A stretch of 64,000 nucleotides of DNA from Rhodobacter sp. 24-YEA-8 (GTDB taxonomy: Bacteria > Pseudomonadota > Alphaproteobacteria > Rhodobacterales > Rhodobacteraceae), in the NCBI RefSeq assembly GCF_900105075.1, contig NZ_FNSK01000001.1, positions 881,001-945,000 of the forward strand. The letters are read 5' to 3'. Numbering within the stretch: position 1 is the stretch's first letter; the number at the start of each line of letters is the position of its first letter. The notes under the pieces are model-generated. The model searched no databases. It saw only the letters and a list, made by a program, of their open reading frames with translations, and was not told the origin of the DNA. Made by a program: the position numbers and the translations under genes. This document shows, piece by piece, positions 1,970-39,446 of the stretch.

Positions 1970-1971
1970 GC

Positions 1972-2949: not shown

Positions 2950-3390
2950 TCAGCCCCGCTCCGTTTCGCGTTCGGCCAGAGCTGCGTCACTGTCTGAGCC
3001 GTTTTTACCGGCGGCGAGAATAGTCTCCAGCTCTGCCTCGATCCAGCCGACCAGGCCGATCAGCCGCGCCGCCGCCGTCTGACCAAGGGCCGTCAGCTCA
3101 TAATCGACATGCGGCGGCACCACCGGATGCGCGGTGCGCAGCACAAACCCATCTGCCTCAAGATCCTTTAGCACCTGTGCCAGCATCCTTTCACTGACCC
3201 CCGCCACCCTGCGCCGCAATGCGGCGAAACGATGTGGCCCGGTGGCCAGCGCCACCATCACCAGAACGCCCCAGCGGCTGGTCAGATGTTGCAGGATGCG
3301 CCGCGACGGGCATTCGGCGGCAAGGACATTGCCCTCGCGCCAGCCCTGCATCAGGCGCTGTGCATCTGTCGTGATGAGGCTGTGCGTCAT
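2950..3390 (-). CDS. HxlR-family transcriptional regulator
   Basis: A 146-residue winged-helix DNA-binding protein. Family hallmarks are the N-terminal Cys (AAECPSRRILQHLTSRWGVL), FAALRRRVAGVSERMLAQVLKDLE as the helix-turn-helix and the wing, and the DYELTALGQ motif. These factors often sense reactive electrophiles or quinones through the conserved Cys and repress a divergent oxidoreductase gene. An NmrA-type oxidoreductase gene lies divergently, with a perfect inverted repeat in the 87-bp gap. I infer that this protein represses both genes. Confidence 0.9.
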   Translation of the reverse strand: MTHSLITTDAQRLMQGWREGNVLAAECPSRRILQHLTSRWGVLVMVALATGPHRFAALRRRVAGVSERMLAQVLKDLEADGFVLRTAHPVVPPHVDYELTALGQTAAARLIGLVGWIEAELETILAAGKNGSDSDAALAERETERG

Positions 3391-3394
3391 TGTT

Positions 3395-3437
3395 CCATAC
3401 TTACAAATTGGTGCGTACTTATTTTTTGTAAGTATGG
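3395..3437. promoter_or_regulatory. Putative HxlR operator, 13-bp perfect inverted repeat
   Basis: CCATACTTACAAA at 3395-3407 is repeated in inverse at 3425-3437, with a 17-bp spacer. A third partial half-site, GTACTTATT, sits in the spacer at 3415-3423. It lies between two divergent starts, the usual place for an autorepressor site of this family. Confidence 0.75.
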
Positions 3438-3477
3438 TGCTATTATTGTCCTGTCAAATCCGGAACAGGAGAAACCA

Positions 3478-4311
3478 ATGACCATCGCCATCACCGGAGC
3501 CACCGGCCAGTTGGGCCGCCTCGCCATTGCCGCGGCCAGCGCCCGTGGCGCCAGCCCCATCGCCCTTGTGCGCAGCCCGGAAAAGGCTGCTGATCTGGGC
3601 GTCGAGACTCGCGCTTTCGACTATGACAAGGCAGATCACGCCGCGCTGAACGGTGTCGATACGCTGGTGCTCATCTCGGCCAATGAGGTGGGCAAGCGTT
3701 TCGCCCAGCATAAGGCGGTGATCGATGCCGCCAAAGCCGCCGGCGTGAAGCGGATCATCTATACTTCTCTCCTGAAGGGCGACGCCTCGCCGATGAAACT
3801 TGCCGCTGAACATGTCGAAACCGAAGCGGCGCTGAAGGAATCGGGGATCACTTACACGATCCTCAGGAATGGCTGGTATACCGAGAACCTGACCGGCGCC
3901 CTGGCGCCAGCGATCGAACATGGCGCGATTATCGGCTCGGCCGGGGAGGGGCGCTATTCGGCGGCCGCGCGTGCGGATTATGCCGAGGCGATTGCGGTCA
4001 CCGCGATTGAGGCGGGCCATGAGAACAAGGTCTATGAGCTTGCCGGCGATACCGGCTTTACCGGTGCCGAACTGGCGGCCGAAGTGGCCAGACAGGCCGC
4101 GAAGCCGGTCGCCTATGTGAACCTGCCCGAGGCTGACTATGCCAAAGCCCTTGAAGGGTTCGGTCTGCCGGCGGGATTCGCCGCAATCCTTGCCGACAGC
4201 GATGCACAGACCGCGAAGGGGGCGCTGTTCGATGACAGCAAAACGCTTTCGCGCCTGATCGGGCACCCGACCACGCCGCTGACTGCTACCGTGGCCGCTG
4301 CTCTGGCCTGA
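3478..4311 (+). CDS. NmrA/QorB-type NAD(P)H-dependent oxidoreductase
   Basis: A 277-residue atypical short-chain dehydrogenase. The N-terminal Rossmann loop is ITGATGQLG (residues 6-13). Further marks are LVRSPEKA (NADP discrimination region), VKRIIYTSLLKGD and the NmrA-like stretch YTILRNGWYTENL. QorB relatives reduce quinones with NADPH. The substrate here is not known. An AGGAG ribosome site precedes the ATG. A long upstream extension of the frame runs through the regulator's operator and is not coding. It is divergent from the HxlR gene and probably its target. Confidence 0.9.
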   Translation: MTIAITGATGQLGRLAIAAASARGASPIALVRSPEKAADLGVETRAFDYDKADHAALNGVDTLVLISANEVGKRFAQHKAVIDAAKAAGVKRIIYTSLLKGDASPMKLAAEHVETEAALKESGITYTILRNGWYTENLTGALAPAIEHGAIIGSAGEGRYSAAARADYAEAIAVTAIEAGHENKVYELAGDTGFTGAELAAEVARQAAKPVAYVNLPEADYAKALEGFGLPAGFAAILADSDAQTAKGALFDDSKTLSRLIGHPTTPLTATVAAALA

Positions 4312-4426
4312 TCGCTTTCCGGGCGGCCTGTCCCCAGGGGCCGCCCGGAGACGATGAAAGGGCGTTTTCAGGCTTTCCCCTGCGCGGCAACCGGCTATCC
4401 TCGCGCCCAAAATGAAAGGGAGAGCC

Positions 4427-4837
4427 ATGTCCGCGTCCGCCACCCGTAAGCTGATCGAATCCTATTACACCGCCTTCAACGCGCTGAACCCCGAAGGGAT
4501 GACGGCGCTTGTCAGCGAGGATATCGAGCACCGCGTCAATGAAGGCGGCATCCGCCGGGGGCGCGAAAAATTCGCGGAATTTGGCTCGCATATGGGTGTC
4601 TCCTACCGTGAAGAGCTCAGGGATATTGTGATCTTCGTGACCGAAGACGGCAGCCGCGCGGCGGCTGAATTCGTCGTTCATGGCGAATATCTGAAGACCG
4701 ATCCGGGCCTGCCCGAGGCTAAGGGCCAGAAATACATCCTGCCGGCGGGGTCGTTTTTTGACGTGAATGACGGACGGATCACCCGCGTCACCACCTTCTA
4801 CAACCTCAATGACTGGATCGAACAGGTCTCGAAATGA
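4427..4837 (+). CDS. SnoaL/NTF2-like ketosteroid-isomerase-related protein
   Basis: A 136-residue single-domain protein of the NTF2-like cone fold. It begins with the typical helix (TRKLIESYYTAFNALNPEGM) and has the conserved beta ending (SFFDVNDGRITRVTTFYNLNDWI). Such proteins may be isomerases, hydratases or binding proteins. No catalytic assignment can be made. I chose the ATG at 4427, which has AAAGGGAG upstream. An ATG 15 bp earlier is possible. Its stop overlaps the GNAT start by 4 bp, so the two are co-translated. Confidence 0.85.
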   Translation: MSASATRKLIESYYTAFNALNPEGMTALVSEDIEHRVNEGGIRRGREKFAEFGSHMGVSYREELRDIVIFVTEDGSRAAAEFVVHGEYLKTDPGLPEAKGQKYILPAGSFFDVNDGRITRVTTFYNLNDWIEQVSK

Positions 4838-5421
4838 GCCTGACCGTCCGCGCGCTGAAGGGGGCCGAGCTTGAGGCCGCGCTGGACGATATGGCGCGGC
4901 TTCGCATCACGGTGTTCCGCGCCTGGCCCTATCTCTATGACGGTACGCTCGATTACGAGCGTACCTATCTTCAGGCCTATCGCGACAGTCCGGGTGCGCT
5001 GCTGGTGGCGGCAATTGATGACGGCAGGATCGTCGGCGCCTCGACCTCGGCGCCGATGGAGGATCATGCGGCTGAATTCGCCGAACCGATGCGCCAGACC
5101 GGTCTCGCGCTGGAAAAAATCCTCTATGGCGCCGAATCGGTTCTTTTGCCGGAATATCGGGGCAGGGGTGTCGGACACCGTTTCTTTGACCTGCGCGAAG
5201 AACATGCCCGCAGCCTTGGTCGCAGCCATGTCGCATTCTGCTCGGTGATGCGACCCGGGGATCACCCGCTGCGCCCTGACACATATCGCAGCAATGACGC
5301 CTTCTGGACGAAACGCGGCTATGCCCCGCTGCCGGGCGCCATCGCGCATTTCAGCTGGCGCGACCTCGGAGAAGTCAGCGATAGTGAAAAACCACTGCAG
5401 TTCTGGATCCGCCAGCTCTGA
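4834..5421 (+). CDS. GNAT-family N-acetyltransferase
   Basis: A 195-residue protein with acetyl-CoA binding motif A (EYRGRGVGHRFF, about 107-118), preceded by a beta strand (ESVLLP). The acceptor substrate is unknown. The start overlaps the stop of the SnoaL-like gene (ATGA). Together they end the cassette placed ahead of infA. An unusual C-terminal part (FWTKRGYAPLPGAIAHFSWRDL) is typical of a larger GNAT subgroup described only as hypothetical acetyltransferases. Confidence 0.85.
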   Translation: MSLTVRALKGAELEAALDDMARLRITVFRAWPYLYDGTLDYERTYLQAYRDSPGALLVAAIDDGRIVGASTSAPMEDHAAEFAEPMRQTGLALEKILYGAESVLLPEYRGRGVGHRFFDLREEHARSLGRSHVAFCSVMRPGDHPLRPDTYRSNDAFWTKRGYAPLPGAIAHFSWRDLGEVSDSEKPLQFWIRQL

Positions 5422-5509
5422 GCCGCCAGTTCTCAACTGTCAGCGCGAAGGGCAGGCCGGAGAAGCCGGCTCTTCGCGCGATCAGCCAGGCGCGCAAACC
5501 AGATAGCCC

Positions 5510-5538
5510 TTGTAAACCCCCGGCACAAAGCGCATATG
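5510..5538 (+). promoter_or_regulatory. Candidate infA promoter
   Basis: TTGTAA (5510-5515) and CATATG (5533-5538) are separated by 17 bp and lie 54 bp before the infA start. The -35 match is good and the -10 match is poor. Since the cassette cut infA from its usual upstream genes, a local promoter would be needed. Confidence 0.3.
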
Positions 5539-5592
5539 CCCAGGTCAGAAGGCCTGCGTTTCCCGCGGGTCCTTATCCTATTCGGAGTGAAC

Positions 5593-5811
5593 ATGGCCAA
5601 GGAAGACATTCTCGAATTCCCGGGTGTCGTGAAGGAACTCCTGCCCAATGCGACATTCAAGGTCGAACTCGATAATGGCCATGAACTGATCGCAACGATG
5701 GCAGGCAAGATGCGCAAGAACCGCATCCGTGTTCTGGCAGGCGACAAGGTCCAGGTGGAAATGACCCCCTACGACCTCTCGAAGGGCCGCATCAACTACC
5801 GCTTCAAGTAA
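5593..5811 (+). CDS. infA: Translation initiation factor IF-1
   Basis: A 72-residue OB-fold protein, exactly the usual IF-1 length ([20 protein letters not shown] at the start, KGRINYRFK at the end). It binds the ribosomal A site during initiation. The frame stays open upstream, but the family start is the ATG at 5593, with GGAG in front. maf follows after nine bases, then the RNase E/G and yacG genes, which appear to form one transcription unit. Confidence 0.98.
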
Positions 5812-5820
5812 GCTGTTATC

Positions 5821-6396
5821 TTGCGACTGATCCTCGGATCCGCCTCGCCGCGCCGCAAAGAACTGTTGGCGCAAATGGGGATCACACCCGATCTCATCCT
5901 GCCTCCCGATATCGACGAGGATCCCCGCAAAGGAGAGCTGCCGCGCCCCTATGCGGCGCGTCTCGCACGGGAAAAGGCGCTGGCGGTAGAAGCCGGGCCT
6001 GATGATATCGTGCTTTGTGCCGATACGACGGTGGCGCTTGGGCGCCGCATTCTCGGCAAGCCCGCAGACGCGGTCGAAGCGGCCTCGTTCCTTGCGCTGC
6101 TGGGCGGCCGCCGCCATGAGGTGATCACTGCCATCGCTTTGCGCAAAGGCGCGCGGATCTGGGCGCGTGAAAGCGTCTCGGCCGTTAAGATGAAGCGGCT
6201 CTCGGATGATGAAATGAATGCCTATCTCGCCAGTGGCGATTGGCAGGGCAAGGCCGGCGGCTATGGCATCCAGGGCCCGGCCGGCGCGTTCATTCCATGG
6301 ATTTCAGGATCTTACAGCGGAATCATGGGCCTTCCGGTCGCCGAAACCGCGCAGCTTTTGACGGCGGCCGGCTATCCGGTCTGGAGGCAGGGATGA
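5821..6396 (+). CDS. maf: Maf-family nucleoside triphosphate pyrophosphatase
   Basis: A 191-residue protein that hydrolyses non-canonical or surplus NTPs such as dTTP/UTP. Motifs are the phosphate-binding SASPRR at 7-12, the catalytic DTTVA near 68-72 and KAGGYGIQG near 145-152. The start is TTG. A TTG or other weak start is plausible because the gene follows infA by only 9 bp. The stop overlaps the next ATG (ATGA at 6393-6396). The exact nucleotide preference cannot be read with certainty. Confidence 0.93.
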
Positions 6397-7433
6397 AGGG
6401 ACGGGTTGTTCTTCTCGATCAGATAGATGGGCGCGAGGCGGCGGCTTTGCTGGTCGACGGGATCCTGGAAGAGATCGCGATTGATCCGGCCAGCGTCGAT
6501 CTGGCACCGGGCGCGATCTGCCGTGCCATTGCCGACCGGCCGGTCAAAGGGCAGGGCGGCGTTTTTGTCAAACTCCCGGATGGTGCGCGCGGGTTTCTGC
6601 GCCAGGTCTCGGGCATCGCGCCGGGCCAGCGGCTGATCGTCCAGGTGTCAGGCCCGGCCGAACCCGGCAAAGCGCTGCCGGTTTCGATCCGTGTTCTGTT
6701 CAAATCCCGTTATGCAATTCTGACGCCAGGCGCGCCGGGACTGAATGTCTCGCGCCGGATCCGCGATGAGGAGCTGCGCGCAGAGCTGGACGCCCTTGCG
6801 GGCCGTGCGATGGCCGGGGCGGCGCCTGATCTGGGGCTGATCCTCCGTTCGGTCTGTGATGCCGCGGAACCCGAAGAAATCGCCGAGGATATTGCCAGCC
6901 TGCGCGGGTTGACCGAGGCCGTGCTGGCCGATCTCAATGGCGCGCCGGAACTCCTGGTCGATGCGCCCGGGGCGCATGAGCTTGCCTGGCGTGACTGGGG
7001 TGACCCCGCACCTGATGAGGTGATCGAAGAGCCGGGAAGTTTTGCCGATTTTGGCGTGGCTGATCAGCTGGATGCGCTGACCGGGGCGCGGGTCGGTTTG
7101 CCGGGCGGGGGGCATATCTGGATCGAGCCCACCCGTGCATTGGTGGCCGTCGATGTGAATACCGGCCCCGATACCTCGCCGGCTGCCGCGCTGAAGATCA
7201 ATATCGCCGCCGCGCGGGAACTGCCGCGTCAGCTTAGGCTGCGCGGTCTTGGCGGTCAGGTGGTGATCGATTTCGCGCCGATGCCCAAGCGCGACCGCAA
7301 TATCCTCGACCAGGTGATCCGCGCGTCGTTCAAGGGTGGCGGCGAGACCAGCCTGGCCGGCTGGAGCGGGCTTGGCCTGTTCGAGCTGACGCGGCGCCGG
7401 GAGGGACTCGCGCTGAGTACGCTCTGGCCATGA
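6393..7433 (+). CDS. Short ribonuclease E/G family protein
   Basis: A 346-residue endoribonuclease-like protein. The catalytic core is visible: VAVDVNTG around 252-258 (metal-binding D254) and [13 protein letters not shown] (D293), matching the two magnesium aspartates of RNase E. It lacks the CxxC zinc-link that joins subunits of RNase E/G and has no C-terminal scaffold, so it is a small form common beside maf and yacG in this family. The start overlaps the maf stop. A full-length RNase E is presumably elsewhere. The S1 domain at the N-terminus looks degenerate. Confidence 0.88.
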
Positions 7434-7615
7434 CCTGTCCGATCTGCGGTAAAAAGACCGAAGCCGCCTCGCGCCCCTTCTGTTCAAAGCGCTGTGCCGA
7501 TATCGATCTCGCGCGCTGGCTGGGCGATGGCTACCGGATCGGCGGTGCCGAAGATGATCCCGCAGCTGACCTGCCAGAGGCAGAGCCGCCAGTACCGCCG
7601 GATCGGGCACACTGA
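7430..7615 (+). CDS. yacG: YacG zinc-binding protein, DNA gyrase inhibitor
   Basis: A 61-residue zinc-finger protein with C3, C6, C18 and C22 (context CPICGKK and FCSKRC) and the following DIDLARWL helix. YacG binds the GyrB domain and inhibits gyrase in E. coli. The start overlaps the preceding stop by four bases. It ends the infA operon. In related genomes tRNA-Phe follows, as here, about 0.7 kb downstream. Confidence 0.92.
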   Translation: MTCPICGKKTEAASRPFCSKRCADIDLARWLGDGYRIGGAEDDPAADLPEAEPPVPPDRAH

Positions 7616-8326
7616 CCGCAGAGCCTGGCTGCCCTTTGATGCGGGCCGCCGGTCGGGCTTAGATATTATGCCGCGCAATCTGTGATTCCGGCGCAGTCAG
7701 CGAGACTGCACAGCTTCGCGCGCCATCGGCTTGCCGCCCGGTCCTCTGTGCCGCCTGTAGGCCATGCAACGGGACGCAGGGGGCAAGATCAGTAGAGCCG
7801 GTTCACCGGCGAAAAGGCGAATGGCCCGATTGCTTTCTTTTCCGGCGGAAGATGTCGCGACCGCCAATTAGGCAGCCGCGACTCCTGGCTGGCTCTGAGG
7901 CGTCTCGGATGGACCAGAGCCGCCCGACACCCCTGAGTGCCCATCCCCTGCGCGCGAGGCCCATAGTGCCCTTTCATGCGCGTCCCCGGGGCGAATGTCT
8001 GTCCCTCCTATACTCGGGCCGTTTTCTGTTTCGCTTCCTCGCGGAAACCTGACTCACGGCCTGGGAGAGATTCGCATTCCTGATCCCCCTGTCTGTGGGG
8101 ATCGGCCCGGACCGGATCGCAGTTGCTGTATCCGCCCTGGTTTTCGGGTCAGCAGAGCATTCTGCGGGCGGTCGCTTGCTGCATCAGAGGCTTTGCTGTG
8201 AGAGCTGGCAGCAAAACAGCCAGTCAAAACATTGTTTCAGGACAATGATTTCGCCTTCTTGGAAACTTATTCGTTTTCCCTCTGGACAGCGCCTGACACA
8301 CTCGGTATCACCCCGCCACCAAGGTT
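7616..8326. other. 711-bp region with no recognised gene
   Basis: Only short, unconserved frames are present. There is no ribosome-binding site with a credible protein, and no riboswitch or repeat that I recognise. The last bases carry the tRNA-Phe promoter region. Confidence 0.5.
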
Positions 8327-8402
8327 GCCCGGATAGCTCAGTTGGTAGAGCAGCGGATTGAAAATCCGCGTGTCGGCGGTTCAAATCCGTCTCCGGGCAC
8401 CA
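8327..8402 (+). tRNA. tRNA-Phe (anticodon GAA)
   Basis: A full cloverleaf of 76 nt with encoded CCA. The acceptor GCCCGGA (8327-8333) pairs with TCCGGGC (8392-8398). The anticodon loop is TTGAAAA and the T-loop is GTTCAAATC. The prophage remnant that follows probably used this gene as its integration site. Confidence 0.98.
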
Positions 8403-9026
8403 TATTATCCCTTGATAACTAATAATATTTACCCACTTTAGCGCGGCGCGAAGCTACAGGGAGATGGCTGTGGGTATCGCTTGGGTATCATTAGATGCGG
8501 CCCCTGCGCTCACAGGCGATCCCGCAGTGGGCGACCGCACGGTACACCCAATCACGGTTTGGGCACCCCCAAGGTGCGTCGCAATCGGCCCAAAGCCGCC
8601 TCTCGCATCATTGATTGTTGCACTACAAACCGGCCGTTCGAGTGCAACGCAGCGAAGGGGTATGCAGCCCGCTAGTTGCCGGTTCGCCAGTCGGCCTGCT
8701 TAGACTGGCAGCCGCAGCTCGCTAAAAATCGAAACACCGTACAGGTAGGGCCGCTCGCTCAGCTGCGGACGCTCTTGTATGCATTTCCAAATTGCCGAAC
8801 CCGCTTGGCGGATGTCGGACGCACCCTGTGCCCCGCACGAGATCTCGCGTGACTTTTGTAGCTTCGCTAGCTACAACTACTTCATGTATGTTCTTCGAGA
8901 AGATATTGACAGACATGAGCCCAGTAAGGCTACATTTTGTGCAATTTTTGGGATGCTGGGTCCTTGGAACCGACATTTTCGAGTAAACTCATGAGAGACT
9001 TGGCGACAGAACCCAAGAAGGCTTAC
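8403..9026. other. Region between tRNA-Phe and the IS3 element, no firm gene
   Basis: A+T-richer than the core and with no convincing product. An ATG at 8991 opens 12 codons (MRDLATEPKKAY) that stop at the IS border. These may be the first codons of the GIY-YIG gene found on the other side of the element. No duplicate of the tRNA 3' end was seen. Confidence 0.45.
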
Positions 9027-9106
9027 TGAGCTACTCCCCGGAAATCGGACAGTGACGGAAGCTACGATCTGACGTTTGCTGGTCTCCACGGACGAGGAGA
9101 TCAGGC

Positions 9107-9403
9107 ATGCGAAAACGCAGGAACCATGACGCGGGCTTCAAGGCGCGCGTGGCACTTGAGGCCATCAAGGGCGAGCGCACTGTGTCGGAGTTGGCGGCCG
9201 AATACGGCGTGCATCCGACGATGATCCATCAATGGAAGAAATCGCTGCTCGACGGGGCTGCGGACATCTTCGAGCGCGGCGGCAAGAAGCCCGCGACGGA
9301 GGTGGATGAAGAGACGGTCCGGTCATTGCACGCCAAGATCGGGGAGCTGGCTGTCGCCAACGATTTTTTGTCACGAAAGCTCAAGCCGTGGAGCGGAAAG
9401 TGA
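9107..9403 (+). CDS. IS3-family transposase OrfA
   Basis: A 98-residue DNA-binding part of the transposase. It has a helix-turn-helix (GERTVSELAAEYGVHPTMIHQWKK) and a C-terminal helix where the leucine zipper of the family lies. GAGGAG precedes the ATG. It overlaps OrfB, which is in the -1 frame. The run of six T at 9363-9368 is a likely slippage site for making the OrfAB fusion, by analogy with other IS3 members. Confidence 0.93.
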   Translation: MRKRRNHDAGFKARVALEAIKGERTVSELAAEYGVHPTMIHQWKKSLLDGAADIFERGGKKPATEVDEETVRSLHAKIGELAVANDFLSRKLKPWSGK

Positions 9404-10254
9404 GGCGTGGGATGATCGAACGGGACCACCCTGCACTGTCGATCGGGGCGCAGTGCCGCCTGCTGTCGATCTCGCGCTCGTCGTTCTGCCACGAGCCGGC
9501 TGGAGAGACTGATCAGAACCTCGGCCTGATGCAGCTGATCGACCGGCAGTTCATGGATACGCCCTTCTACGGCGTCCGGCAGATGACCTGGCATCTGCAA
9601 AACGAGGGGCACGGCGTGAACCAGAAGCGCATCCGGCGGCTGATGCGGCTCATGCGTTTGATGCCGATTTACCAGAAGCCCAACACCAGCAAGCCGAGAA
9701 AGGGCCACAAGACCTATCCCTACCTGCTGGGCGGGCTGCGGGTCGATCGCCCCGGTCAGGTCTGGTGCGCCGACATTACCTATCTCCCGATGCGGCGGGG
9801 GTTTCTGTATCTGGTCGCCATCATGGACTGGTTCACGCGCAAAGTTCTGGCCTGGCGCATATCGAACACCCTGGAAGCGGACTTCTGCGTCGAGGCGTTG
9901 AACGAGGCCATCCACCGGTTCGGCGCGCCCACAATCATGAACACTGACCAAGGCAGCCAGTTCACGTCCTTCGCTTGGACAGATCGGCTGAAACGCGTCG
10001 GAACCCGCATCTCGATGGACGGCAAGGGGCGGTGCATCGACAATGTCTTCATCGAGCGCCTGTGGCGGTCCCTGAAATACGAATGCGTCTATCTGCATGC
10101 CTGGGAGACCGGGTCTCAGGCAAAGGCCGCAATCGGATCCTGGGTCAGCTTCTATAACCATCGGCGGCCACACACTGCCCATGGCGGGTTGCCCCCCGCC
10201 GTGGTCTACTTCAACAGCATCGAAACCGACCGGCAGGCACAGGCGGTAGCTTAA
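9388..10254 (+). CDS. IS3-family transposase OrfB, DDE integrase
   Basis: A 288-residue catalytic part of the transposase. The DDE triad is seen in WCADITYLP, NTDQGSQF and FIERLWRSLKYE, with 35 residues between the second D and E. An HTH_21 domain (GVRQMTWHLQNEGHGVNQKRIRRL) precedes it. The frame appears intact, so the element may be active. OrfB is probably made mainly as an OrfAB fusion by -1 frameshifting. Confidence 0.93.
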   Translation: MERKVRRGMIERDHPALSIGAQCRLLSISRSSFCHEPAGETDQNLGLMQLIDRQFMDTPFYGVRQMTWHLQNEGHGVNQKRIRRLMRLMRLMPIYQKPNTSKPRKGHKTYPYLLGGLRVDRPGQVWCADITYLPMRRGFLYLVAIMDWFTRKVLAWRISNTLEADFCVEALNEAIHRFGAPTIMNTDQGSQFTSFAWTDRLKRVGTRISMDGKGRCIDNVFIERLWRSLKYECVYLHAWETGSQAKAAIGSWVSFYNHRRPHTAHGGLPPAVVYFNSIETDRQAQAVA

Positions 10255-10293
10255 ACATCCTCGAAAACTGTCCAAGCATCGGGGAGTAGCTCA

Positions 10294-10800
10294 ATCAGCG
10301 TCAGATCGATCAACCACGGTGTCTATGGCTGGTGGTTCGACGGGCGGCTGCCTGCCGTACCGAGGGCTGGCTGCCGCAAGCGAGCGGGGAAAGACCTGCT
10401 ATACATCGGCATTGCATCTCCCAGCAGTCAACCGGCTCGTTCCAGATCGCCGATGGCACGTCGTATTTGGCGAAATCATCTGCAAGGAACCGTTAGGACG
10501 TCTACACTTCGTCTATCGATTGCAGCTTTGTTGCGTACGGAATTGCATCTGGAATTCTTTCGGGACGGGCAGGATCGGGTACGCATGAGCCGCCAGCATG
10601 AAGTGCAGCTGAGCACTTGGCTGCATGAGCATGCGGCAATTTCCGTTATGCAACATGATGATCCTTGGTCCGTAGAAAAGGCCCTGATCGAAGATGGCCC
10701 GCCGCTTCCACTCAACCTGAGCATGTCCATCCATTCTTTCAGAAAGGCACTAAGCGAGCTTCGGCGTTCACTTGGGCGCAAGCCCACGCTACCCGGATAG
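10294..10800 (+). pseudogene. GIY-YIG nuclease-like gene, 5' end cut by IS3
   Basis: One open frame runs from the IS border to a TAG at 10798, 168 codons without an ATG at the proper place. It begins ISVRSINHGVYGWWFDGRLP, holds LLYIGIA (the YIG half of the GIY-YIG motif), STLRLSIAALL, LSTWLHEHAAISV and PLNL near the end. This is the layout of a family of bacterial GIY-YIG catalytic-domain proteins of unknown role. The missing N-terminus may be the 12 codons at 8991-9026. Phages and defence islands often carry such genes. Confidence 0.75.
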
Positions 10801-10974
10801 TTAGCCACGTGCCGAGGGAACCGCCACAGGCCGAGCAGGACTGGCGCAGGACGACGAAATCGGGTGTTTCCGGAGGAACCCCTGCGGATTCTGTGCAAAG
10901 GGCGTAAAACTAGGGTCAGGACCCATTGATCTTGTGCTTTCAGCATGATTCAGGCTCGTCAAGGAGATCGATGG

Positions 10975-11358
10975 ATGAGCAACCTATTTTGGCTGACTGA
11001 GGCGCAGATGGCGCGTCTGGCGCCCTTCTTCCCCAAGAGCCACGGGAAGCCTCGTGTTGATGACCGGCGTGTTTTGAGTGGAATTATATTCATCAATCGC
11101 AATGGCTTGCGGTGGAGAGATGCCCCTAAGGAATATGGTCCTGCGAAGACCCTCTACAATCGTTGGAAGCGCTGGAGTGACAGGGGTATCTTCGCCTGCA
11201 TGATGCACGGCCTGGCGGCAGAGGCGGCTGTTCCGAAGACGGTGATGATCGATGCCACATATTTGAAGGCGCATCGCACGGCATCCAGCCTGCGGATAAA
11301 AAAGGGGGGGCAGACGACAGACGGGGGCGGGCAATCGGTCGAACCAAAGGCGGGATGA
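10975..11358 (+). CDS. IS5-family transposase, first frame
   Basis: A 127-residue N-terminal half of the transposase: DUF4096-type domain (MSNLFWLTEAQMARLAPFFP, GLRWRDAPKEYGP) and the first catalytic Asp in MIDATYLKAHRTASS. The start at 10975 has AAGGAGA in front. It contains the slippery A AAA AAG at 11298-11304, after which a -1 shift continues into the second frame as GGADDRRGRAIGRTKGG. The catalytic protein is therefore a frameshift fusion. Confidence 0.93.
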   Translation: MSNLFWLTEAQMARLAPFFPKSHGKPRVDDRRVLSGIIFINRNGLRWRDAPKEYGPAKTLYNRWKRWSDRGIFACMMHGLAAEAAVPKTVMIDATYLKAHRTASSLRIKKGGQTTDGGGQSVEPKAG

Positions 11359-11744
11359 ACACCAAACTGCACGCCGTGACCGACACCGCAGGACGCCCCA
11401 TCCGGTTCTTCATGACCGCAGGCCAGGTCAGTGATTACACTGGGGCCGCCGCGTTATTGAGCGGCCTGCCATCGGCAGACTGGCTGCTTGCAGACCGTGG
11501 ATACGATGCCGACTGGTTCAGAGAAGCCTTGAAAGACAAGGGGATAAAGCCGTGCATCCCGGGCAGGAAGTCTCGGAGCAAGCCCGTCAAATATGACAGG
11601 CGCCGCTACAAGCGCCGAAATCGGATCGAGATCATGTTCGGCAGACTGAAAGACTGGCGGCGGGTCGCAACGCGATACGACAGGTGCCCGAGGGTGTTCC
11701 TCTCAGCAATCGCGCTCGCCGCAACCGTCATCTTCTGGCTGTAA
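11355..11744 (+). CDS. IS5-family transposase, second frame
   Basis: A 129-residue C-terminal half with the remaining DDE residues: LLADRGYDADWFR (second D) and RRRYKRRNRIEIMFGRLKDWRR (the Y-x2-R-x3-E-x6-K signature). It overlaps the first frame by ATGA, so it could also be started separately. The full enzyme is expected from -1 frameshifting at the A6G7 run. Confidence 0.93.
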   Translation: MNTKLHAVTDTAGRPIRFFMTAGQVSDYTGAAALLSGLPSADWLLADRGYDADWFREALKDKGIKPCIPGRKSRSKPVKYDRRRYKRRNRIEIMFGRLKDWRRVATRYDRCPRVFLSAIALAATVIFWL

Positions 11745-11984
11745 AACAATAACGAGTCCTGACCCTAGCCTCCTACGCCAATTTTGAGCCTTTCTTGGGT
11801 CTGTTTGCCTCCCGAGCGATACCCGCAAGGTATCCGTCCGACTGGCCTGAAATCGTAACGATATGAATTTGCACATATTTTTTGGAGGATTGAGCGTGGG
11901 GCAGAAAGATAGATAGTCAGAAGGTCAGGCAAATGCCGCGTTCGAGTTGGTCCCAGCGTGGTTGACAGCACGTGCGCTGCCCCC

Positions 11985-32633: not shown

Positions 32634-32710
32634 CGGGGCGTAGCGCAGTCTGGTAGCGCGACGGTTTTGGGTACCGTAGGTCGGGAGTTCGAATCTCTCC
32701 GCCCCGACCA
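32634..32710 (+). tRNA. tRNA-Pro (anticodon TGG)
   Basis: A 77-nt cloverleaf with encoded CCA. The acceptor CGGGGCG (32634-32640) pairs with CGCCCCG (32700-32706). The anticodon loop is TTTGGGT, the stem is ACGGT/ACCGT and the T-loop is GTTCGAATC. A convergent integrase gene ends 40 bp downstream, the arrangement expected of a phage attachment site. Confidence 0.98.
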
Positions 32711-32750: not shown

Positions 32751-33725
32751 TTACAGCTTTGTTCCGGTTGTGTCCCGAAGGCGGGCCAGCTTGTCGCCAA
32801 TTCCGTCTGCCATTTGCGGTGACAGCGCGACGTAGTTTTCGATAACCTCCGCCGCATGTTTGATGGACCATCCCATCGCAACCGCGATCTCTTTGAGTTC
32901 TGCGCCGGCAGCCAGAAGCCGGGTGGCGGCCGTTCCTCGCGCGTCGTAAAGGCGGAGCTCCTTCCTCATCTTGAGCTTGTCTCGCCATTCACTGACAGAA
33001 TCACCCAGGTAGTTTTCGTGGCTGTAGGCCTCGCCCCCCTTGTTGATGATGAGGTAGGTCTGATGCTTCGGCATATCATCGATCAATGCCGCCAGGCGCG
33101 GCGTTACTGGGATCGATGCCAGTCGGCCTCGTTTGCGGGTCCGCAGTACAATCCTGCGGCCATGCGGTGTGGGTAATATGTCATCACGCGTAAGGCGGAC
33201 CAGATCGCCCGGCCGCAGGCCGGTCTCGGTTGCTACAATCAGAATCCTGCCCACTTGGGGTGGTGCACCGGCTACGAAGTCGTCGATCTCGGCCTCGCTC
33301 CACATAATCTCCGCGCGATCTGACGAATACAGGGCGGGGATATCCCGCAGATGATTCTGCAGTATCATTGCGCGGTCGATTCCGAACTTTACCAGACGCT
33401 GCAGGTGGCGCAGTCGGTCATCTCCGACTTTGCCGCCGATCTTGTCGCGCCACTCCAGGACCTTGCGTCGAATTCGAGGGTCGTCAAAGGCGTCCGCGTC
33501 GATCTTGCCAAATTTGGTATCAATCCCGTTTTTGGGATGAAAGAAACTGTTGCGCATATCCTTTTGGGTGGTCACCTTCTTGTCGGCCTCGGTTTCCTTC
33601 ATTGGTGTGCGCTTCGATTTCCGGGAGGCCTTGTCGAGGGCCTTGTTGATCCCGGCGACGGCGCCCATCGTCGTTTGGGCTTCCTCTCCGCCAGCCCGGA
33701 TGGTCATGCGCGTATCGCCGTCCAT
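32751..33725 (-). CDS. Tyrosine integrase with unusual N-terminus
   Basis: A 324-residue site-specific recombinase. Catalytic parts are R171 (TGLRPGDLVRLTRDD), Y260-D-A-R263 in the HxxR position, the W286 region and nucleophile Y298 (IENYVALS). His of HxxR is replaced by Tyr. The first ~50 residues do not resemble an integrase arm domain and may come from another phage gene fused in. AAAGGATC precedes the ATG at 33725. It lies next to tRNA-Pro and presumably served the second prophage. Confidence 0.75.
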   Translation of the reverse strand: MDGDTRMTIRAGGEEAQTTMGAVAGINKALDKASRKSKRTPMKETEADKKVTTQKDMRNSFFHPKNGIDTKFGKIDADAFDDPRIRRKVLEWRDKIGGKVGDDRLRHLQRLVKFGIDRAMILQNHLRDIPALYSSDRAEIMWSEAEIDDFVAGAPPQVGRILIVATETGLRPGDLVRLTRDDILPTPHGRRIVLRTRKRGRLASIPVTPRLAALIDDMPKHQTYLIINKGGEAYSHENYLGDSVSEWRDKLKMRKELRLYDARGTAATRLLAAGAELKEIAVAMGWSIKHAAEVIENYVALSPQMADGIGDKLARLRDTTGTKL

Positions 33726-33736
33726 GCCGGATCCTT

Positions 33737-33869
33737 TCAGCAGCATCCCGGCGGGGTGCCGGGGAAGGTGAGGTTGAGGAGGGTGGTCAGCACCGCATGG
33801 CCTGCGACCAGGGCGAGCCCGACGACTGCCAAACCAGCGCCGACCACCAACAGCGCCTTCAAGGTCTCG
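33737..33869 (-). pseudogene. Fragment of a hydrophobic phage protein
   Basis: On the minus strand, about 43 codons with a membrane-like stretch (LLVVGAGLAVVGLALVAGHA) end in TGA at 33737-33739, just before the integrase frame. The 5' part is replaced by the terminase fragment. It could be the end of a small membrane protein. Weakly supported. Confidence 0.35.
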
Positions 33870-34655
33870 AAAGAGGCGGAGCAGATCTGGGCCAGTCAGC
33901 ATCTCAACATCGAGATTGGCGTTGGTCTGGGCGGCTCGGCATGGTCAGGGGCGATGCATTGGGAAGAGGCGGTGTGCGAGGGGCTGACCCTCGATGAGCT
34001 GCTCGAGCAGAGTGAGGTTTGCACCATCGGGGTTGACTGGGGCGGTGCAGACGACCTTGCGGCCCTCGCAGTTCTCGGACGCCGCAAGGTGGATAAGGTC
34101 TGGCTACTCTGGGTTCGTGCCTGGGCGCGACCATCGGTTTTCGAACAACGGCCGAAGATTGCGCCTCAGCTGCGTGATTTCGAAGCAGATGGGGATCTGA
34201 AGGTTGTAGCGACCGGCGAGGAACAGGCCGCAGAGGCAGCGGCGATCTGCGCCCGGATCTGGGCGGCAGGAAAGCTGCCGGAGGCGTCGGGGATCGGCCT
34301 CGACAGCGCCGGCATCGCGCTGCTGTTCGACGCTCTGACCGCGTTAGAGATGACCGATCCTCTGGTGCAGGCTGTCAAGCAGGGGTGGGCCTTGCAGACT
34401 GCGCACCAGACCCTGCCTCTGAAGCTGGAGTCGAAACGCCTGCTGCACGGCAATCAGCCGCTCCTGAACTGGTCGGTTGGCAATGCGAAGCAGGAGTTGG
34501 TCCGCAACAATTATATGGTGACCAAGGAAGCCTCGGGCGCGGGCAAGATTGACCCGCTTATGGCCGCTCTGGATGCCGCGATGCTGATGTTTCTCAACCC
34601 TGCGGCGTCTGGTGGACCATCGGTCTACGAGTCGCGCGGCATTCTGATGATCTGA
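33870..34655 (+). pseudogene. Phage terminase large subunit, C-terminal part
   Basis: About 260 residues of the nuclease half of a terminase. It begins at EAEQIWASQHLNIEIGVGL, contains TIGVDWGGADDLAALAVLGRR (metal-binding Asp region), GIGLDSAGIALLFDAL and KIDPLMAALDAAMLM near the end, a pattern of the HK97-type terminases. The ATPase half is missing. Upstream in-frame codons are antisense to the integrase. The portal gene starts 8 bp after the stop. Confidence 0.8.
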
Positions 34656-34662
34656 GGTGTTC

Positions 34663-34757
34663 ATGGGCCTGTTGGACCTGTGGCGTGGCTCGCCCGCGCC
34701 GACTGCCGCCGCCCGCGTGGAGCCGGCGGTCTCTTCGATTGTCGCGCCGGCCGTCTA
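34663..34757 (+). pseudogene. Phage portal protein, first codons only
   Basis: MGLLDLWRGSPAPTAAARVE is typical of the start of HK97-type portal proteins and follows the terminase gene. After about 31 codons the frame is broken by the IS5 element. The rest of the gene is not found on the other side. Confidence 0.65.
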
Positions 34758-34819
34758 GGGTCAGGACCCATTGATCTTGTGCTTTCAGCATGATTCAGGC
34801 TCGTCAAGGAGATCGATGG

Positions 34820-35203
34820 ATGAGCAACCTATTTTGGCTGACTGAGGCGCAGATGGCGCGTCTGGCGCCCTTCTTCCCCAAGAGCCACGGGAAGCCTCGT
34901 GTTGATGACCGGCGTGTTTTGAGTGGAATTATATTCATCAATCGCAATGGCTTGCGGTGGAGAGATGCCCCTAAGGAATATGGTCCTGCGAAGACCCTCT
35001 ACAATCGTTGGAAGCGCTGGAGTGACAGGGGTATCTTCGCCTGCATGATGCACGGCCTGGCGGCAGAGGCGGCTGTTCCGAAGACGGTGATGATCGATGC
35101 CACATATTTGAAGGCGCATCGCACGGCATCCAGCCTGCGGATAAAAAAGGGGGGGCAGACGACAGACGGGGGCGGGCAATCGGTCGAACCAAAGGCGGGA
35201 TGA
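34820..35203 (+). CDS. IS5-family transposase, first frame (copy 2)
   Basis: The same 127-residue protein as in copy 1, with an identical translation. It includes the N-terminal DUF4096-like domain and the first catalytic Asp (MIDATYLKAHRT). The slippery A6G7 run at 35143-35155 allows a -1 shift into the next frame. Two identical copies point to recent transposition. Confidence 0.93.
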   Translation: MSNLFWLTEAQMARLAPFFPKSHGKPRVDDRRVLSGIIFINRNGLRWRDAPKEYGPAKTLYNRWKRWSDRGIFACMMHGLAAEAAVPKTVMIDATYLKAHRTASSLRIKKGGQTTDGGGQSVEPKAG

Positions 35204-35589
35204 ACACCAAACTGCACGCCGTGACCGACACCGCAGGACGCCCCATCCGGTTCTTCATGACCGCAGGCCAGGTCAGTGATTACACTGGGGCCGCCGCGTT
35301 ATTGAGCGGCCTGCCATCGGCAGACTGGCTGCTTGCAGACCGTGGATACGATGCCGACTGGTTCAGAGAAGCCTTGAAAGACAAGGGGATAAAGCCGTGC
35401 ATCCCGGGCAGGAAGTCTCGGAGCAAGCCCGTCAAATATGACAGGCGCCGCTACAAGCGCCGAAATCGGATCGAGATCATGTTCGGCAGACTGAAAGACT
35501 GGCGGCGGGTCGCAACGCGATACGACAGGTGCCCGAGGGTGTTCCTCTCAGCAATCGCGCTCGCCGCAACCGTCATCTTCTGGCTGTAA
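35200..35589 (+). CDS. IS5-family transposase, second frame (copy 2)
   Basis: A 129-residue C-terminal catalytic half, identical in translation to copy 1 (LLADRGYDADWFR and NRIEIMFGRLKDWRR). It overlaps the first frame by ATGA. It is made mostly as a frameshift fusion, by analogy with the IS427 group. Confidence 0.93.
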   Translation: MNTKLHAVTDTAGRPIRFFMTAGQVSDYTGAAALLSGLPSADWLLADRGYDADWFREALKDKGIKPCIPGRKSRSKPVKYDRRRYKRRNRIEIMFGRLKDWRRVATRYDRCPRVFLSAIALAATVIFWL

Positions 35590-35612
35590 AACAATAACGA
35601 GTCCTGACCCTA

Positions 35613-36185
35613 AAGGCAACAGGCATAGCAAATGGCGTCAAAGTAAAACATCTTACGGACAGGCACTTTGAGATCGCGGTAGTGGGTAGTGATGGACTAG
35701 ACCACAACATAGCTGACGTGGGGTTTGGGTGCAGTCAAGTGCTGCCGGTTCTTGTTTCTGGCTTAAAATCAATGATTAGGCAGAAGTTGCCCAGCGGGAG
35801 AGTTTCTTTTGGACATTCGACCCTAGTTGTTCAAGAGCCGGAAATTCACCTGCATCCAAATGCCCAAGCTGAACTGGGTTCATTTTTTGTTGGAGTCGCA
35901 AATAAGGGACCCCAGGTTTTCCTTGAAACTCACAGCGACAACATGGTTTTGCGTGTCGCTCGCCACATCGCAGCAGGGGACATTGATGCTGATGCTGTGA
36001 GAATATTTTACATAAGAGATGACAATGGCACGAAGAGCGTTTCACGGATAGAGTTTGATGAATCTGGAAGATTTAAACCCGAGTGGCCGGGCGGATTCTT
36101 CCCTCAACGACAATCAGAATCTTTTGAACTAGCCAAGGCCTCCGTTGCAAGGGTGAAAAAAATTGATGCCACCAACCGTAATTGA
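35613..36185 (+). pseudogene. AAA/ABC-type ATPase (OLD/DUF3696-like), N-terminus cut by IS5
   Basis: About 190 residues remain. They hold the ABC-like signature region (ADVGFGCSQVLPVLV), Walker B with the catalytic pair in LVVQEPEIHLHP, and the switch histidine in FLETHSDNMVLR. A DUF3696-like tail (QRQSESFELAKAS) follows. The Walker A half is missing, ending exactly at the IS. Such ATPases regulate nucleases in OLD, Septu and retron-type defence. The DNA is visibly A+T-richer than the core. The last 20 bp overlap the PIN gene. Confidence 0.8.
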
Positions 36186-36663
36186 TGCAAACTGCATGAA
36201 GCATTTTCAAGATGAGAGGTTAAATGGAGAGGAAGGTGCTTATCACGAAATGATTAATTGCGCATTCACAAAGGGTTCTGTTGCTATAGATTTAGATAAG
36301 CGGGCCGAGCAAGAATACTACGATTGCTGCAAGCCATCCGTTGCAGGTATCAATTTGCAAGATTGGATTAGTGATCAGCTGATTACCGGAAAATTTATTT
36401 ATTGCATCCATGATGACAGCGCAAAAAGGAAGTTGCGAGAAATGGGAGTTCCTGCAAAGGATTTGAAATGGCCAGCTATTGCCATTGGCTCAGGAGCAGA
36501 CCTGATAATAACAAATGACATAGACCTATTTGACCCTGCCGCAAAAAATTACACCTCCAAGAAGAAAGATCAGATCAAGCGAGACGGAGGTCCTGTCTCT
36601 AAGTATCTTAGGAAGAATCACAGCATAGAGGTATCAAAGGCAGAGCACTTTATTTCAACTTAG
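36166..36663 (+). CDS. PIN-like domain protein, partner of the ATPase
   Basis: A 165-residue protein with the PIN layout: the first acidic residue in TVIDANCMKHF (D7) and a late cluster in DLIITNDIDLFDP (D118, D120, D123). PIN domains are metal-dependent RNases or nucleases. The gene overlaps the ATPase gene by 20 bp, so the two were made together, probably nuclease and regulator. I chose the ATG at 36166. A TTG lies one codon before. Codon use is A+T-rich, a sign of transfer. The intact nuclease without its ATPase may be inactive or unregulated. Confidence 0.75.
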   Translation: MPPTVIDANCMKHFQDERLNGEEGAYHEMINCAFTKGSVAIDLDKRAEQEYYDCCKPSVAGINLQDWISDQLITGKFIYCIHDDSAKRKLREMGVPAKDLKWPAIAIGSGADLIITNDIDLFDPAAKNYTSKKKDQIKRDGGPVSKYLRKNHSIEVSKAEHFIST

Positions 36664-36999
36664 CCTTTTATTTTCGGATCTTTGCTTCTCGGAATCGTGG
36701 CAGCGCTTGCAGAGGGCTTGCAGGTTGTTCCAGTTCATCACTAGCGCCACGTTGCCGTGGTGGCGCTGGATATGGTCCACAACCTCGGCACCAGCACCGC
36801 AGAACGCACAAGTCGGGTGCAGGCGCAGGAACTCGGTCCGTAGGGCTTCCCACTGGCGCGTATAGCCGCGCTGGCGGCTGTTCGGGCGGGTTGCATCATA
36901 CCGGCGCTTGCGGGCGCGGATGGTATCACGCTGGCAAGCGCAAAGTTCACCAGCCGGAATAATGGCACCACATGAACAGAGACGGGGCGGCGCTGGCAT
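36655..36999 (-). CDS. Phage HNH endonuclease
   Basis: A 114-residue protein. It has an N-terminal zinc-ribbon (LCSCGAIIPAGELCAC), a basic linker and an HNH core (TCAFCGAGAEVVDHIQRHHG, then NLQALCKRCHDSEK). The ATG at 36999 fits. It converges with the PIN gene, with 9 bp overlap. In HK97-like phages such genes lie beside terminase and help packaging. Here it is on the opposite strand to the terminase fragment, so the remnant is rearranged. Confidence 0.88.
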   Translation of the reverse strand: MPAPPRLCSCGAIIPAGELCACQRDTIRARKRRYDATRPNSRQRGYTRQWEALRTEFLRLHPTCAFCGAGAEVVDHIQRHHGNVALVMNWNNLQALCKRCHDSEKQRSENKRLS

Positions 37000-37003
37000 C
37001 ACG

Positions 37004-37330
37004 TCACCAGAGCAAGGTGACGGCGACTGCATCCGTGCCGGTCGCCATAATCCGCTTGGGGCGCAAAGCGATGAAAAGCGGCTTGCAATCCAGCGTCATG
37101 CCTTGGGCAAGGATGGTCAGTTCCTCACCGTTCTGCATCACCAGCCGAAGCGGGCGCGGTGTCATTGCGTCCTGTATGACGCCGCTGCCGTCTGGCTGTT
37201 CCAGATATGGGATATGGATTGCCGAAGGGATCACCGGCAGGTCAGCGGTGTCGTTCGGGGTGACGGTCAGGGCATTGTCATAAGGCGCGCCTTCGCTGGG
37301 GGCGCGGCCTTGGAACGGGTCGTTACTCAT
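37004..37330 (-). CDS. Phage spike-base-like protein (rcc01079-type)
   Basis: A 108-residue protein. The start MSNDPFQGRAPSEGAPYDNA, the TPNDTADLP motif and the ending RPKRIMATGTDAVAVTLLW follow the short beta-rich spike-base proteins known from the Rhodobacter gene transfer agent and related tails. The HNH start lies 5 bp beyond its stop. The tail assembly gene ends 15 bp before its start. Assigned by pattern, not by alignment. Confidence 0.6.
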   Translation of the reverse strand: MSNDPFQGRAPSEGAPYDNALTVTPNDTADLPVIPSAIHIPYLEQPDGSGVIQDAMTPRPLRLVMQNGEELTILAQGMTLDCKPLFIALRPKRIMATGTDAVAVTLLW

Positions 37331-37344
37331 TGGATACTCGCTAC

Positions 37345-37989
37345 TTAACTGGTGGTGGACTTCCCGAGGAATTTTCCAATCATGCCGCCATTGCTGGCGA
37401 TGTCCTCGCGGTTGTGGATGCTCAGCGCCCCATTGATCATGGTGCCACCCGTCCAAACCCGACCATAAGCAATAGGGATGATACCCCCTTCGCGGGTTGT
37501 GTTTTGCGGGCCGGTCATGGTGAAGGACTTTTCGTTTTCCTCGGCTTTCAGCTCCGGGGCCAGCAAGGTCGCCACGCCGGTAAGCATGAGGCTGGCTCCC
37601 ATAGCGCCTGCAATGGAACCCATGCTCATACTGCCGCCCGCGAACAACGGGGCAGCAAGGGCCGCGCCACCGAGGGAGGCAAGCCCGATCAGTGCAACCC
37701 CTGCAATGATCTTGCCGAGGCCACCGCGTTTTGAACCTTTGATAACCGGGACAATGAACAGGTCTTGGGTGCCAAGTTTGAAGCCCGGCAACATGGCTTC
37801 ATCCAGTTCCATGCCGTTCTTTTGGGTCTTTCCGACAATCACCCGGAAATGGCCGTTGCGGATGGTATTGAAGAACTTGGGGAAGTTCGCTTGCAGGGCG
37901 TCAATGGCCTCTTTGACGGTATCAACCGCCAGCCTGATCTTATGGCCGAACTCACGGCCCAAGCTGCCGTGAAGATGTATCGTTCTCAT
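37345..37989 (-). CDS. Lambda gpI-like tail assembly protein
   Basis: A 214-residue protein with the gpI arrangement: a ubiquitin-like N-terminal domain (MRTIHLHGSLGREFGHKIRL), a Gly/Ala-rich hydrophobic middle (LGKIIAGVALIGLASLGGA) and a C-terminal part with IIPIAYGRVWTGGTMINGAL. In lambda-type phages it works with gpK and gpJ in tail tip assembly. Its start overlaps the upstream stop by 4 bp. Confidence 0.85.
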   Translation of the reverse strand: MRTIHLHGSLGREFGHKIRLAVDTVKEAIDALQANFPKFFNTIRNGHFRVIVGKTQKNGMELDEAMLPGFKLGTQDLFIVPVIKGSKRGGLGKIIAGVALIGLASLGGAALAAPLFAGGSMSMGSIAGAMGASLMLTGVATLLAPELKAEENEKSFTMTGPQNTTREGGIIPIAYGRVWTGGTMINGALSIHNREDIASNGGMIGKFLGKSTTS

Positions 37990-38612: not shown

Positions 38613-39446
38613 TTATGCAGCCATTTTCAGCTTGCGGAACACATCGGTGCGGACCACGCCTGCACCGACACGGCGGCGGGCATGGAAGCGGGCAAGGCCG
38701 GTGATGCGTTGCGTCAGCAGGTCGGGCATCACGTCGAGCGCCACGCGGTCATAGATGCGATAGCCCGCTTTGAAGTCGCCAAAGATGATCGGCGTTGCAG
38801 CAGCCACCACGTTCGGCATGTCCAGCGCTTCCACGACAGGACGCCCGAGGATGGTTTCCGGCTGGCCCGCCTGATAACTCGGCTGCCACAGATAGTTGCC
38901 GTTGCCGTCTTTCAGCTTGCGCACGGTCGCCAGCGTGGTGCCGTTCATCACCCATGAACCCCGGTTCCGGTAGGTGGCGGGCATCGCATAGAACAGGTTG
39001 ATAAGGGCATCCGGCGACAAGGTGGTGGCATGGCCGTTGTTCGTCTCGGCAATGCCCGCAGCGGTCATAAAGCCGGTCGGTTCGATGGCGGATGCAGCAC
39101 CAACGCCGCCGTTAACAAATGCCGTGGCCTCTTTCAGGCCGAAGTCCTCGGCCAGCGCAAGCCGGACCTCGGCCTCCACATTGGCGGAATCTTCCAGCAT
39201 CCGCAGCGACAGGTCCACATAGGTCGCCAGTTCCTTCACCGTGAACTCGGATTGGCCGAAGGTCGGTTCCGAGGCGGTGCGGGCGGTGGTTTCACCCACC
39301 CAAACAGCATTGGTGATGGTGTTCCGTTTCGGCAGAAGGATGGTGTGGCTGGTCGGCTGGTGCAGCCAGCCGGCCCCCGTGCGCGAAGCTCCGGATCGCG
39401 GCGCTCCAGTGTCGCGAGCAGAGCAAAGGCCGGACAGACGCTGCAT
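38613..39446 (-). pseudogene. Phage major capsid protein (HK97 fold), N-terminus lost
   Basis: From about 39350 downwards the protein matches HK97-type capsids: AVWVGETTARTASEPTFGQS, VDLSLRMLEDSANVEAEVRL, TAFVNGGVGA and WVMNGTTLATVRKLKDGNG. The scaffold-like part and the first capsid strand are missing. The codons at 39351-39446 are unrelated. The usual genes between capsid and tail (head-tail connectors, tail tube, tape measure) are absent, so this block has large deletions. Confidence 0.8.

Follow-up and report, generated by a model that had tools for sequence, protein, structure and literature searches.

In the 64,000-nt stretch of the Rhodobacter sp. 24-YEA-8 genome analysed here (the window), positions 35611-36663 probably hold a two-gene ATPase-PIN module in decayed form, carried by a prophage and sister to the candidate system HEC-03; intact copies of the module would defend the cell by sensing through the ATPase and acting through a PIN ribonuclease. 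The first gene survives as a 190-codon ATPase frame that emerges from the right end of an insertion sequence (IS) of the IS5 family, and the end of this frame overlaps by 20 nt the start (ATG at 36166) of a complete gene for a 165-residue protein. A previous reading of the letters alone (the sequence-only reading) had described a truncated OLD/DUF3696-like ATPase overlapping a complete PIN-like gene by 20 bp, and the open reading frames, Pfam matches and translations agree with it.

The ATPase remnant matches the Pfam families AAA_15 (2.9e-11), AAA_21 (7.3e-10) and DUF3696 (5.3e-06), all above the family cut-offs, and has 109-115 identical of 174-181 aligned residues with intact homologues at four loci (L001-L004). 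Comparison with such homologues shows that it retains the stretches GFGCSQVLP, which we take to be signature-like, VVQEPEIHLHP, presumably Walker-B-like, and ETHSD, and that it lacks the P-loop half of the ATPase. The P-loop and PEIHL columns are invariant in the ATPase alignment (A8), and intact relatives have an ABC head fold according to Pfam, a predicted model and fold matches; no Toprim family was found on the four intact ATPases or among the Pfam domains of 120 listed ATPase relatives. When the genome was searched with the N-terminal 245 residues of a homologue, the lost half was not found anywhere, and the sole match elsewhere was the NsnB gene, with 32% identity over 84 residues. Because its ATPase lacks the P-loop half, the window copy, judged by its sequence, cannot be a working module, and the function is therefore to be studied in intact relatives.

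The profile search that had been suggested for the 165-residue protein returned no significant match in Pfam, NCBIfam, PADLOC or PHROG. Its weak matches (Pfam DUF6355, 0.044, and DUF7916, 0.07; PHROG, 0.27) were taken as chance, as were those of a profile of its relatives (alignment A2, without the own copy P0003 and the fragment P0047) to two PDB sequences, TsFerB (E = 0.015) and a ferritin (0.73). The assignment to PIN comes instead from these relatives and from the predicted structure: the model (pLDDT 97.9) has a PIN fold, and in two match lists its leading PDB structure matches are mostly VapC/PIN toxins, with chain G of the CbCas9-PcrIIC1 complex (8wmm) also in the first ten rows of both. 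The catalytic residues expected of a PIN protein are kept, the acidic quartet D7/E50/D99/D118 being complete in 57 of 65 aligned rows (Table 1); five of the other eight rows are cut at the N-terminus, and three vary at E50, two of these having E for D99. By predicted fold and conserved acids, the protein is thus a member of the PIN superfamily, with a predicted nuclease role. The heptamer AAGGGTG, which ends 10 nt upstream of the ATG, resembles by eye a ribosome-binding site.

Sequence comparison indicates that the pairing of the two genes is real and conserved in relatives. A full-length ATPase gene, with an open frame of 431-500 residues, lies directly upstream of the PIN-type gene in 20 of 21 distinct homologous loci outside the own genome (L025, the same place as L009, is counted once), so that homologues do keep an ATPase partner and the full-length pairs looked for in other genomes do occur. 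The ATPase model used for this check was built from eight of the paired loci, the other 12 being independent of it. At L001-L004, ATPases of 459-469 residues meet the PIN start with anything from a 4-nt overlap to a 4-nt gap. Genome searches with A2 or with a further PIN alignment (A3) added L007, L008, L009, L010 and L018, four of them with an ATPase directly upstream; the fifth, L008 (E = 4.6e-5), is the sole exception among the 21 and has a different PIN-like gene without an ATPase, beside a gene read by eye as RpoN. A separate search with the PADLOC model HEC-03A gave matches in 13 of 299 genomes, each at a locus with a same-strand, full-length ATPase upstream. An apparent ATPase-PIN fusion at L024 (524-residue frame) was rejected, as it consists of two overlapping frames.

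Two further comparisons point to a stable partnership. Among the 66 PIN relatives, 24 lie on a contig of exactly the same size in nucleotides as that of one of the 120 listed ATPase relatives (of at least 807), as against a chance level, obtained with shifted sizes, of 1.0 on average and 6 at most; the contig of P0055 has the size of that of P0026 but stems from a different source, and the agreement is probably a coincidence. The distances among the PIN proteins and those among the ATPases are correlated both in the window clade (r = 0.79 for 25 pairs; 0.81 when the window row is omitted) and in HEC-03-type loci (r = 0.89 for 13 pairs), and none of 5000 permutations reached such values; shared ancestry of the sequences inflates these correlations, which count as support and not as proof. 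They took in 20 of the 24 equal-contig pairs (leaving out P0006 and P0011, which are L002 and L003, as well as P0030 and P0055) and 13 of 15 HEC-03-type loci (leaving out L023 and L024, with L018 assigned by tree only).

The predicted fold and acidic pattern of the PIN protein are those of VapC toxins. With a PIN fold closest to these toxins, genes that overlap or abut in the manner of a toxin-antitoxin operon, and carriage in a prophage, the pair could be a toxin-antitoxin or prophage-maintenance module, in which the ATPase neutralises a VapC-like toxin for the stability of the element and not for defence. VapBC systems, however, have a small antitoxin gene upstream, and the gene in that place in 20 of the 21 loci encodes an ABC-type ATPase several hundred residues long. 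The window ATPase is broken and its PIN gene intact, a state that would hardly be tolerated with a freely active toxin unless it were silent, and one relative, the pair at L011, lies inside an Hma-like operon. We regard such a module as unlikely.

The sequence-only reading could not name the pairing, but names for it exist. The PADLOC candidate HEC-03 (HEC-03A, PDLC04147; HEC-03B, PDLC04148) has the same two-gene plan, a DUF3696-type ATPase followed by a PIN-like protein; HEC stands for 'Hma-embedded candidate' in the accessible part of PMC12988326. A 2026 survey (PMC12839542, accessible part) pairs OLD-ABC ATPases with HNH, PD-(D/E)XK or PIN nucleases, in 594 taxa for all, and proposes endoRNases and standalone endoDNases, many of them OLD-ABC-linked, as backup suicidal effectors; its OLD-ABC and PIN pairing is the same in general terms, but is described there for BREX and BREX-related loci. 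This kind of pair is therefore already known. What the present analysis adds is a divergent clade with a profile-less PIN protein, its predicted fold, a stable ATPase partner and a prophage-borne copy.

In HEC-03 and in the window clade alike, the two genes are adjacent on one strand and overlap or abut, and the PIN protein has the D-E-D-D pattern. Comparison of A2 with the alignment of HEC-03-type proteins (A7) gave an hhalign probability of 97.2 (E = 3.8e-11, 124 columns), with the four acids in register. L011 and L012 cover the sites of L009 and L010 at greater length; their PIN proteins match HEC-03A (7.7e-28 and 4.8e-30), and the L011 ATPase matches HEC-03B at 3.7e-127. The window PIN protein has no HEC-03A match (0 PADLOC families); HEC-03B matches the window remnant at 7.4e-24 and the four intact relatives at 1.4e-39 to 8.2e-37, and is not their best-scoring family. 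In both the PIN and the ATPase tree, the HEC-03-type loci form one branch, adjoined by L013, and the window-type rows fall outside it. Given the profile-profile match, the HEC-03A miss and the separate branches in both trees, the window pair belongs, on these comparisons, to a divergent clade that is sister to HEC-03 and falls outside the modelled system. The Hma-like operon was observed on the HEC-03 side only: at L011 (6107-10446), it encloses the HEC-03-type pair together with an RNA ligase gene (PF09414) and a GmrSD protein. At this single locus, the ligase gene overlaps the PIN gene by 8 nt, and the presence of a nuclease with an RNA ligase suggests RNA cutting and repair.

The target could also be DNA, as in Septu or Gabija, the ATPase serving to clamp or sense DNA and the PIN protein to cut that of the phage. 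The predicted fold of the intact ATPase is, by structure comparison, closest to PtuA, GajA and Rad50/SMC heads, all of which are linked to DNA. The leading structural matches of the nuclease, on the other hand, are VapC-type PIN proteins, which are ribonucleases, and the ligase gene at L011, if at one locus, points to RNA; we think a DNA target quite improbable.

Several known systems join an ATPase of this type to a separate effector. Septu and the retron-associated PtuA-PtuB likewise combine an ABC ATPase with a small nuclease and appear near the top of the structure matches to the ATPase, but their partner is an HNH nuclease (titles of 9n6b and 9n69; PMC10952713 for Septu) and ours a predicted PIN protein; the HNH gene that follows the window pair is convergent and matches phage HNH families. 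PARIS has a sensor-type ABC/OLD ATPase (AriA) and a separate nuclease (AriB) in one operon (PMC12409363, accessible part), AriB being a Toprim nuclease and the partner here a predicted PIN fold; in PARIS, three AriB are bound by a hexamer of AriA, according to the same article. The remnant matches AriA at 1.6e-13, more weakly than PDC-M55A, NsnB or HEC-03B, and AriA is absent from the best 50 ATPase structure matches listed, which excludes nothing. In DS-3 and DS-5 (DefensePredictor), a PIN ribonuclease without a classical antitoxin is required for phage defence; DS-3 is a single protein and the DS-5 partner a DUF5830 and AcrIF4-like domain protein, with no ATPase partner named in the accessible part of PMC13092281.

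In Menshen (NsnA-NsnB-NsnC), NsnB is related to the ATPase described here, at 6.1e-34 for the remnant and 9.5e-61 to 1.3e-59 for the four intact relatives. No NsnC lies beside the window pair, the single NsnC match of the genome being at C1:2482136, and the PIN rows of A3 do not match the NsnC or PDC-M55B profiles, which are 305 and 315 positions long. Read together, these comparisons suggest that one ATPase superfamily is combined with different partners. The NsnC match belongs to a locus of the same genome (L043, G000:C1:2474000-2492000; positions 1800-11396 of it) in which NsnC, NsnB and NsnA matches stand in a row, a complete Menshen set, convergent to a CBASS set (cyclase, E1-E2, JAB and SAVED-HNH effector matches). 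This intact set, about 1.57 Mb away, raises the question whether the orphan PIN protein has been taken over by another sensor ATPase, such as NsnB, which is of the same superfamily. NsnB is, however, only distantly similar to the lost ATPase part (the 84-residue match above), it already has NsnC as a partner, and the distance correlations suggest specific partners, which makes a takeover extremely improbable. Related ATPases also occur on viral contigs. L055 and L056 (3764-7058; IMG/VR) have three genes of 410, 395/414 and 298 residues, the middle one matching the ATPase model, and look by size and order like Menshen sets; at L057 (1-1924), a related ATPase is followed by a 252-residue gene that matches neither PIN model, possibly another partner. 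No neighbour of these three ATPases was found by the two PIN models, and scans of viral contigs with three PIN subgroup alignments gave no match.

The mechanism that we infer to be most likely is that the ATPase senses infection and then unleashes a PIN ribonuclease, as in PARIS. An intact module would comprise an ABC/OLD-type ATPase of about 460 residues, without Toprim, encoded directly before, and often overlapping, a PIN-fold gene of about 165 codons. The ATPase would hold the PIN protein inactive, sense a phage-made trigger through its ATP-bound state and, once triggered, free or activate its partner, which would cut RNA, probably tRNA or a different RNA used in translation. The growth of cell and phage would then halt, to the gain of the resident prophage or of neighbouring cells. 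Sensing, regulation, RNA target and defence role are all putative. The suggestion of a defence module made by the sequence-only reading finds its support in association, single loci carrying the pair beside prophage genes or inside a defence operon; it does not extend to a working system in the window, where the module is inactive and the PIN gene an orphan, probably silent.

A number of observations weigh against this interpretation. ATPase relatives (at least 807 at E <= 1e-20) outnumber PIN relatives (66 at E <= 0.01), so the ATPase superfamily may also serve other partners; a search of 240 genomes at E <= 1e-60 returned the own-genome remnant only, and the frequency of PIN-less ATPases is therefore not derivable from it. 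The PIN family is rare, present in 3 of 385, 2 of 398 and 2 of 198 genomes (the own genome in each) and in 2 of 146 of the genus of L003, and was not found in phage or plasmid records; a first scan of genome contigs with the single PIN sequence gave no relative, and an alignment query then found three. By eye, the L002 and L003 pairs lie amid ordinary chromosomal genes. As to HEC-03, 67 of the 69 A3 rows, that of the window included, miss the HEC-03A model, the two matching rows coming from HEC-03-type loci; at four of the 13 loci that HEC-03A matches (L029-L032), the match is weak (E from 1.5e-8 to 7.8e-5) and the A3 model at E <= 0.01 finds none; the intact ATPases of the clade score 201-205 bits with NsnB and 168-192 with PDC-M55A, compared with 125-134 with HEC-03B; and the ATPase and PIN trees place the window row differently. 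Several HECs, HEC-06 among them, are reported to have shown activity, and HEC-03 is not named in the accessible part of that article (PMC12988326). An archaeal OLD-family ATPase, Cran1, is reported to have a cell-cycle role instead of one in defence (PMC12796447, accessible part), and the literature searched, with supplementary files and the original HEC paper outside it, held no published activity or account of the window clade.

The location in a prophage remnant, judged from the genes present, is as the sequence-only reading had it: integrase, terminase, HNH, tail assembly and major head matches lie nearby, and the remnant adjoins tRNA-Pro (Table 1). The tRNA-Pro end was not found a second time within the window, which leaves the far boundary of the prophage unplaced. 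The foreign base composition is likewise borne out, with 44.6% G+C at 35611-36663 compared with 62.4% for the whole window and 0 of 1259 same-size stretches of the window (step 50) as low. Directly 3' of the partial terminase, a 31-codon coding start (34664-34757) without a PHROG match ends at the IS and is possibly the start of a cut phage gene.

The IS5-family element lies exactly at the break in the ATPase gene, and CTA adjoins both its ends, the right-hand C being common to the terminal repeat. It is one of three 100%-identical copies in the genome, which indicates that it moved recently. A second copy, in the same orientation, lies at 10913-11765 of the window (G000:C1:891913-892765), and an identical copy adjoins the CBASS genes of L043; among the matches listed, the element is similar, at about 75-80% identity, to elements on plasmids of Rhodobacteraceae and relatives. 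The claim that the IS5 element removed the N-terminus of the ATPase thus stands as to position and loss; its role as the cause, as opposed to a later entry, is not proven, one genome being unable to give the order of events.

It is very likely that the window copy no longer has any function and is only debris, the cut-down ATPase gene and the partnerless PIN gene being carried along in a decaying prophage. The missing ATPase half, the partial terminase and head genes and the recent transposition all fit this, and for the copy itself, the one thing that it covers, it agrees with our reading of a decayed module. The PIN frame and its four acids are nevertheless intact and the remnant is free of stops, so the decay is recent at most.

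Table 1. Features of the ATPase-PIN locus and its surroundings (window coordinates)
Feature	Position	Strand	Details	Basis or note
tRNA-Pro	32634-32710			Beside integrase
Phage integrase	32754..33902	-	phrog_1, 1.5e-22	Adjoins tRNA-Pro; taken as one end of the prophage remnant
Terminase large subunit, partial	33798..34652	+	phrog_9, 2e-35	Profile positions 438-678 of 812
IS5-family insertion sequence, 853 bp	34758..35610	+	Two-frame transposase, 34790-35203 and 35200-35589	Transposase Pfam matches, flanking letters
ATPase C-terminal remnant, ABC/OLD-type, DUF3696	35613..36185	+	190 residues, without stop, without start codon	Open reading frame list, translation, Pfam
Longest start-codon frame within the remnant	35682..36185	+	GTG, 167 residues; not the whole ATPase	Open reading frame list
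PIN-fold protein gene, complete	36166..36663	+	165 residues; ATG 20 nt inside the ATPase frame	Translation, predicted model, alignment
Codon of D7, PIN acidic residue 1	36184..36186	+	D in 60/60 rows with a letter	
Codon of E50, PIN acidic residue 2	36313..36315	+	E in 62/65 rows	
Codon of D99, PIN acidic residue 3	36460..36462	+	D in 63/65 rows, E in 2	
Codon of D118, PIN acidic residue 4	36517..36519	+	D in 65/65 rows	
Phage HNH endonuclease gene	36658..37032	-	phrog_144, 1.6e-22	Convergent with PIN gene
Phage tail assembly protein	37348..37989	-	phrog_32, 4e-45	
Phage major head protein, C-terminal part	38616..39446	-	phrog_10, 1.2e-59	Profile positions 404-637 of 752

A protein without a database match can now be linked with the PIN superfamily and with an ATPase partner that is conserved, in a lineage of ATPase-PIN modules beyond the reach of the HEC-03A model. 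It is conceivable, if somewhat doubtful, that the window-type clade represents a separate immune system, spread by prophages and diverged early from HEC-03, which has its own trigger and RNA target and was missed by that model; if so, surveys would undercount ATPase-RNase immunity arising from partner swapping around one DUF3696 ATPase superfamily (NsnC, PDC-M55B, HEC-03A-type PIN and window-type PIN). Confirmation of the proposed mechanism would carry the PARIS plan of a sensor ATPase and a released RNase over to another nuclease fold, and would make the exchange of partners around a single ATPase superfamily testable with intact pairs from named strains, such as that at L003 (Mesorhizobium sp. 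YC-39). The locus itself exemplifies a prophage-borne module that is broken but has kept a complete effector gene.
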